Position numbers and translations under genes: made by a program
Assembly (NCBI GenBank): GCA_004173235.1
Contig: SEAC01000030.1
Location: forward strand, 89,387 to 153,386
Length of the DNA stretch: 64,000 nt
Reading direction: 5' to 3'
DNA from: Chitinophagaceae bacterium
GTDB taxonomy: Bacteria; Bacteroidota; Bacteroidia; Chitinophagales; Chitinophagaceae
Part shown: piece by piece, positions 30,580-31,190 of the stretch
How the letters are laid out: each line of letters opens with the position of its first letter
Position numbering within the stretch: the stretch's first letter is position 1
The notes under the pieces: generated by a model
Database searches by the model: none
What the model was told of the DNA's origin: nothing
What the model saw: only the letters and a program-made list of their open reading frames with translations

Positions 30580-30655
30580 TTTTTGTTCCTCCGAGCGTCG
30601 CGCTTTTTGTCCCTCCGAGCGTCGCGTTTTTTGTCCCTCCGAGCGAAGCGAGGAG
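30580..30655 (+). repeat. GIY-YIG cassette left repeats: three 23-24-bp units ending in a GNA-type palindrome
   Basis: tttttgttcctccgagcgtcgcg / ctttttgtccctccgagcgtcgcg / ttttttgtccctccgagcgaagcg + aggag; palindrome ctccgagcgaagcgaggag at 30637-30655. Confidence 0.92.
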
Positions 30656-30985
30656 TCACCGCAGCAGCCACCCTGGTGGTGGTGGCCATGTATTGAAGAA
30701 GCGTGTATTGAGAAATGCCCATTCAGGGTTTTGCCGATTGATCAAAGCCACCTTTTTCGGCCGCGACCATCCCTTTATTTCCTTCTCACGCTGTATAGCA
30801 TTGAGGATGTAGGGGGTTTCTTCATAATATAGAAGGTAATGTGTGTTATATCTGGCCGTGAAATTCGATAGCCCATTGTAATGCTCCAGCAATCGGGCCT
30901 GCAGGTTGTTCGTAACGCCAGTATATAGCACCGTACGGTGGACGTTGGTAACGATGTAGGTGAAATAGCTTCGTTTACGCGGCAT
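30656..30985 (-). CDS. GIY-YIG nuclease family protein
   Basis: MPRKRSYFTYIVTNVHRTVLYTGVTNNLQARLLEHYNG...LNAIQREKEIKGWSRPKKVALINRQNPEW. Confidence 0.92.
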   Translation of the reverse strand: MPRKRSYFTYIVTNVHRTVLYTGVTNNLQARLLEHYNGLSNFTARYNTHYLLYYEETPYILNAIQREKEIKGWSRPKKVALINRQNPEWAFLNTRFFNTWPPPPGWLLR

Positions 30986-31057
30986 CGCCCGAAGCTACCA
31001 ACAGTCGTGAAGCTATCCATGGGAAAAAGAACAGGATTTGGTGGTGTTTTTCCCAGA

Positions 31058-31076
31058 CTCCTCGCTGCGCTCGGAG
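31058..31076 (-). repeat. GIY-YIG cassette right palindrome (inverted copy)
   Basis: ctcctcgctgcgctcggag; reverse complement ctccgagcgcagcgaggag matches the left palindrome 18/19. Confidence 0.92.
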
Positions 31077-31080
31077 TAAC

Positions 31081-31105
31081 AAAAGCCCCGCGGAGCGGGG
31101 CTTTT
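31081..31105. terminator. Bidirectional intrinsic terminator
   Basis: aaaagccccgc-gga-gcggggctttt perfect 11-bp stem. Confidence 0.9.
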
Positions 31106-31141
31106 GTGCGATCACTTTTGTGCTGCATATGGCGGCGAAAC

Positions 31142-31190
31142 GCACATCAGACATCAGACATCCGACATCCGACATCCGACATCAGACATC
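31142..31190. repeat. Heptad array H6 (RGACATC-type x7)
   Basis: gcacatc|agacatc|agacatc|cgacatc|cgacatc|cgacatc|agacatc; overlaps the last secA codons and stop. Confidence 0.92.

Follow-up and report, generated by a model that had tools for sequence, protein, structure and literature searches.

A GIY-YIG nuclease gene between inverted tandem-GA hairpins, a probable low-copy member of the Ssn family

What is a small nuclease gene doing between two inverted copies of a palindrome? The question is raised by one locus in the window analyzed here, by which we mean the whole 64-kb stretch of DNA. A first-pass annotation had proposed that a REP-like element is paired there with a GIY-YIG enzyme, in analogy to REP/RAYT, and this pairing is supported by the concentration of hairpins at homologous genes, the kept G..A loop, and the conserved tandem GA. 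The unit is probably an Ssn-type REP-associated nuclease gene, with a predicted enzyme that recognizes and nicks its own flanking repeat in single-stranded form; we infer the binding, the cleavage, the choice of strand, and the role from comparisons of sequence.

The nuclease gene and its palindromes

The nuclease ORF (30656 to 30985, minus strand) encodes a COG2827/Ssn-like protein of 109 aa in which GIY-YIG is the sole Pfam domain (PF01541, 6.5e-15); nothing of an HUH tyrosine transposase was found in it. The catalytic motif residues are intact, with the Y, Y-x-G, R, E, and N of the GIY-YIG domain all present, and Y9, Y20, G22, R30, H34, E66, and N85 are invariant in 24 homologues. The AlphaFold2 model (pLDDT 92.9) resembles UPF0213 BH0048, Slx1, and the UvrC N-domains, with a best Foldseek E-value of only 1.3e-3, and the PDB gave a single, marginal sequence match. 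Searches with the nuclease returned no match in PADLOC, only weak matches in PHROGs (best E, 0.002), and nothing above the cutoff in NCBIfam; none of the phage records searched carries a homologue.

The left complete palindromic element, TTTTTGTCC-CTCC-GA-GC-GAA-GC-GA-GGAG-TC, occupies 30628 to 30657 on the plus strand, and the right inverted element, TTTTGTTA-CTCC-GA-GC-GCA-GC-GA-GGAG-TC, occupies 31056 to 31084 on the minus strand. The 19-mer CTCCGAGCGNAGCGAGGAG matches without mismatch at 30637-30655 (plus strand, N = A) and at 31058-31076 (minus strand, N = C), and two such matches were reached in none of 100 shuffles; allowing up to three mismatches gave no further match in the 64 kb. The first-pass annotation was thus correct in placing inverted palindromes around one GIY-YIG ORF, identical except for the central base (A versus C), with the nuclease TGA abutting the left one. 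The inverted pair is longer than the 19-mer, extending over 29 nt (30629-30657 and 31056-31084, 90% complementary), and this 29-nt repeat is asymmetric, with a TTTTGT tag. Three 24-nt tandem units start at 30580, 30604, and 30628; the first two (30580 to 30627, plus strand) consist of the tag, the 5′ arm, and the loop, without the 3′ arm, and are the truncated units already described outside the left palindrome.

On the other side, secA precedes the nuclease ORF on the same strand. A perfect 13-bp inverted repeat with a 3-nt loop, ending in TTTTGT (31079 to 31107, no strand assigned), adjoins the right element and is a probable secA terminator; the TTTTGT of the right element doubles as the end of this terminator-like stem. 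In the source genome, the nuclease unit sits just past the apparent secA terminator. At the 3′ end of secA itself, GACATC[AC] units form a short tandem array (31148-31188; GACATCAGACATCCGACATCCGACATC), and one relative has a similar direct-repeat tract after secA.

The exact window palindrome occurs twice in its own genome, both times flanking the ORF, and is absent from all 248 same-order genomes searched. Hence this palindrome does not itself qualify as a high-copy REP, and the idea that it would be a dispersed repeat in its own genome did not hold. At three mismatches, that genome gave 8 further matches, compared to 4 for a reversed control pattern. Ordinary DNA folding gives the hairpin −2.5 to −3.8 kcal/mol (z about 0), which does not mark it as exceptionally stable, under parameters that may not credit GNA loops.

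Tagged hairpins at homologous genes

Given that no exact palindrome was found in the 248 same-order genomes, the association was tested by a motif-free comparison, in which each homologue was scored by the best inverted match of its two 300-bp flanks and compared to sham genes elsewhere in the same loci. In the same-order set, 40 of 61 homologues lay above the 99th percentile of the 183 shams, which reached a maximum of 28; the genes had a median of 32. Across phyla, this was the case for 44 of 78 named loci, with a Mann-Whitney P of 1.6e-25 that carries no correction for shared descent. The matching flank segments converge on one pattern, GTCA-NNNN-GA ... GA-NNNN-TCT.

Tagged hairpins (GTCA-stem-GA-stem-GNA-stem-GA-stem-TCT) were scanned for around 142 homologues from many phyla. 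Their density is 6.5/kb at less than 100 bp from the gene, 4.7/kb at 100 to 200 bp, and 0.3 to 0.4/kb beyond 1 kb; 117 of the 142 genes have a tagged hairpin within 400 bp, 77 of them on both sides. Elements near the genes also differ in kind: 330 of 428 have GA at both inner ends, versus 44 of 319 far ones. Within 400 bp, the tandem-GA type is found at 95 of the 142 homologues, leaving about one third without it, versus none of 19 UPF0213-type GIY-YIG genes of the same order. Both the gradient with distance and this comparison agree with the pairing of repeat and enzyme that the first-pass annotation had proposed. GA-type elements are present at 42 of 47 loci in Bacteroidota and 9 of 10 in Clostridia, and also at single or few homologues in Acidobacteriota, Nitrospinota, Omnitrophota, Planctomycetota, and other groups. 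None was seen at the few loci scanned from Verrucomicrobiota, Calditrichota, and Melainabacteria. Across 249 genomes of the order, gene and hairpin tend to be present together (odds ratio about 4.7, P about 2e-6, uncorrected for descent), and 12 genomes have at least two repeats but no GIY-YIG gene detected at E ≤ 1e-3. In many relatives, solitary repeats are dispersed away from the gene.

The composition of the elements was examined with the tag and the GA positions fixed and the arms free. Fully complementary 4-nt arms were found in 167 of 212 pairs, and since they are complementary across 19 arm types, the stem is kept by covariation. Arm type agrees loosely with the protein tree, requiring 47 changes compared to 64.7 ± 2.6 when shuffled. 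Among 111 triloops, 91 are GNA (N is A in 35, C in 32, T in 16, and G in 8), and 17 of 28 tetraloops are GNNA. The loop base thus varies while G..A is kept, the outcome looked for in the test that the first-pass annotation had proposed, and the tandem GA that it saw in the stem is conserved. Because the opposed G and A in the loop and the tandem GA are found on the tag strand only, we infer that the tag strand is likely the folded form.

The strict GTCA scan misses both window elements because their tags have diverged (GTCC and GTTA). The left copy reads GTCC-CTCC-GA-GCGAAGC-GA-GGAG-TCA and the right copy GTTA-CTCC-GA-GCGCAGC-GA-GGAG-TCT; since they deviate from GTCA...TCT at different places, both look like diverged, slightly decayed versions of a canonical element. 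Canonical elements, GTCATCCCGAGGAACGAGGGATCT, are carried by the nearest relative, the Pinibacter soli homologue (63% identity).

The Ssn family and the CGTC-tagged repeats

A tblastn search found a homologue in Neisseria gonorrhoeae, on a chromosome whose record is labeled a plasmid (38.8% identity over 78% of the query, E 1e-8); it may well be the published Ssn (Neisseria Ssn/NTS). The Ssn family (Nat Commun 2025) reportedly consists of GIY-YIG nucleases that cut ssDNA, but not dsDNA, site-specifically at repeats present in hundreds of copies in Neisseria. The window locus shares with it a single-domain GIY-YIG nuclease and a gene surrounded by repeats. It differs in having a hairpin with tandem GA, a GNA triloop, and 4- to 5-bp outer stems, and in that its exact repeat is private to its gene, with two copies rather than hundreds. 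With both homology to the Neisseria enzyme and enclosure by a cognate repeat, the window locus is most likely a low-copy, diverged member of the Ssn family. Given only two copies in the source genome, there is no REP population there for the enzyme to serve.

The first-pass annotation knew of no formal description of the principle. It has probably been described, because it fits the reported Ssn family; a literature search turned up no paper that links GIY-YIG enzymes to REPs. The tandem-GA/GNA hairpin class and the tie to CGTC REPs may be undescribed so far.

That tie rests on the flanks of homologues elsewhere. The Neisseria homologue sits amid many copies of CGTCATTCCC...GGGAATC, which fit dRS3, classed as CGTC-1 REPs by Di Nocera et al. 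(PMC3733652). CGTC REPs are defined there by CGTC (or TGTC/CCTC) at one end, an 8- to 9-bp stem that begins with AT pairs, a 4- to 5-nt loop, and a CCA-like tail, and in 2013 they were said to “apparently lack a dedicated transposase” (PMC3733652). Such repeats flank several alphaproteobacterial homologues, those of Azospirillum, Sinorhizobium, Rhizobium, Shinella, and Sphingobium. The link is not universal, since the flanks of the homologues in Novosphingobium (L268) and Rhizobium tumorigenes (L269) showed no convincing CGTC repeat. The window element resembles the CGTC-tagged REPs, including dRS3, in its asymmetric, partly GTC-type tag, short palindromic stem, and short tail. The tag reads TGTC followed by C on the left and TGTT followed by A on the right. 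The element differs from the CGTC-tagged REPs in its 4- to 5-bp, GA-interrupted stem, its triloop, its TCA/TCT tail, and its copy number, two exact copies in place of many.

The source genome also holds a second COG2827-like GIY-YIG gene (C14:132575-132844), which has a different private palindrome, ATCCCGGCGGCAAGCGCCGGGATGACG, CGTC-tagged (ATCCCGGCG type). The core of this palindrome occurs in 11 copies, 6 of them within about 1 kb of the gene. The paralogue lies inside an array of CGTC-tagged palindromes (C14:131981-133767), with 195-bp spacing on one side. For a third homologue (C10:169783), the inverted flanks were not significant in the flank comparison.

Alternative readings and predicted activity

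The layout also recalls REP/RAYT (TnpA-REP, an HUH tyrosine transposase), with one enzyme gene between inverted hairpin repeats and solitary repeats in relatives; the window enzyme, however, has a GIY-YIG rather than an HUH fold, and its repeat has no GTAG tag. UPF0213/YhbQ, the UvrC N-domain, and Slx1 share the nuclease fold, whereas the UPF0213-type genes of the order have no flanking hairpins.

One can envision that the gene and its inverted repeats form an autonomous, IS-like mobile element, with the repeats as ends and the GIY-YIG enzyme as transposase. Besides the inverted ends and the solitary repeats elsewhere, as in REP/RAYT, gain and loss at conserved sites would be in keeping with this. 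On plasmid AZO_p3 of Azospirillum lipoferum 4B (L263, 1300-2000), sufB and sufC are separated by the gene and, on either side of it, a pair of CGTC REPs; the corresponding gap is gene-free and about 90 to 130 bp long in A. ramasamyi, A. oryzae, and strain B510. Comparable presence and absence of gene and repeats is seen at gltA-lpxB in Sinorhizobium. No GIY-YIG gene was found beside secA in any of 29 relatives (tblastn over about 1.5 kb of flanks), and the context of orthologs, followed via an AraC-type neighbor, showed no synteny. Against a mobile element, the empty Sinorhizobium site retains repeat sequence, the insert boundaries in the alignments are inexact, no target duplication was seen, and the orientation of the nearest repeat is only weakly biased (54:39 and 59:42). 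Moreover, we know of no transposition chemistry for a GIY-YIG nuclease alone. We consider this reading unlikely, and because the boundaries are not sharp, no transposition mechanism is claimed.

It seems more doubtful still that the hairpins are host elements of the REP or terminator type, found 3′ of genes in permissive DNA, where small horizontally acquired genes happen to land and the nuclease is unrelated. The right element does adjoin a terminator-like stem downstream of secA, and most REPs are located 3′ of genes (PMC3733652). However, the enrichment is local and specific, being absent from the UPF0213-type genes used as a control class, and two paralogues in the source genome each have a different palindrome. 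Finally, it is very improbable that the palindromes are autoregulatory binding sites of the nuclease or 3′ hairpins that stabilize its mRNA: the stop codon abuts the window element and lies within 5 nt of an element in 15 of 80 loci, but elements are found on both sides, clustered, and genome-wide away from the gene in many relatives, the GA and GNA features favor folding of tag-strand DNA, and the tag strand, occurring in both orientations, is not consistently the mRNA strand.

We therefore return to a nuclease paired with its own repeat. The recurrence of this pairing across many phyla suggests that the repeat may be a substrate of the enzyme in single-stranded form, as is reported for a known family of such nucleases. 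We propose that the 109-aa enzyme would recognize its flanking repeat when it is single stranded, as on the lagging strand during replication or in DNA taken up by transformation or conjugation. The tag strand would fold into a 4- to 5-bp stem, tandem sheared G·A pairs, a further 1 to 2 bp, and a GNA triloop, with GTC 5′ and TCT 3′, and the enzyme would nick this folded form at the tag or close to it. Its role might be to modulate exchange of ssDNA, to spread the repeats, or both.

A broader proposal, which we put forward tentatively and regard as possible rather than probable, is that Ssn-type nucleases are the missing enzyme of a CGTC/GTCA-tagged REP superfamily across bacteria, spreading the repeats via nicked, folded ssDNA in a second REP system independent of HUH enzymes, with a hairpin code of GTC tag, tandem sheared GA, GNA loop, and free stem. 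In the survey, one small family of nucleases goes together, in many phyla, with repeats of the CGTC kind and with their widespread tandem-GA/GNA variant; the window locus itself is one low-copy example. Should the compact hairpin rule hold, it would provide a set of ssDNA nucleases that differ in their sites and a way to ask how these repeats spread.

Two observations from the survey concern gene content. Genomes G009, G025, G036, and G085:C8 are among those with tandem or up to ten GIY-YIG paralogues. On plasmid p1 of Planktothrix agardhii (L271), a homologue with GA-type hairpins has a type IIL restriction enzyme gene on one side and the DISARM gene drmA on the other.
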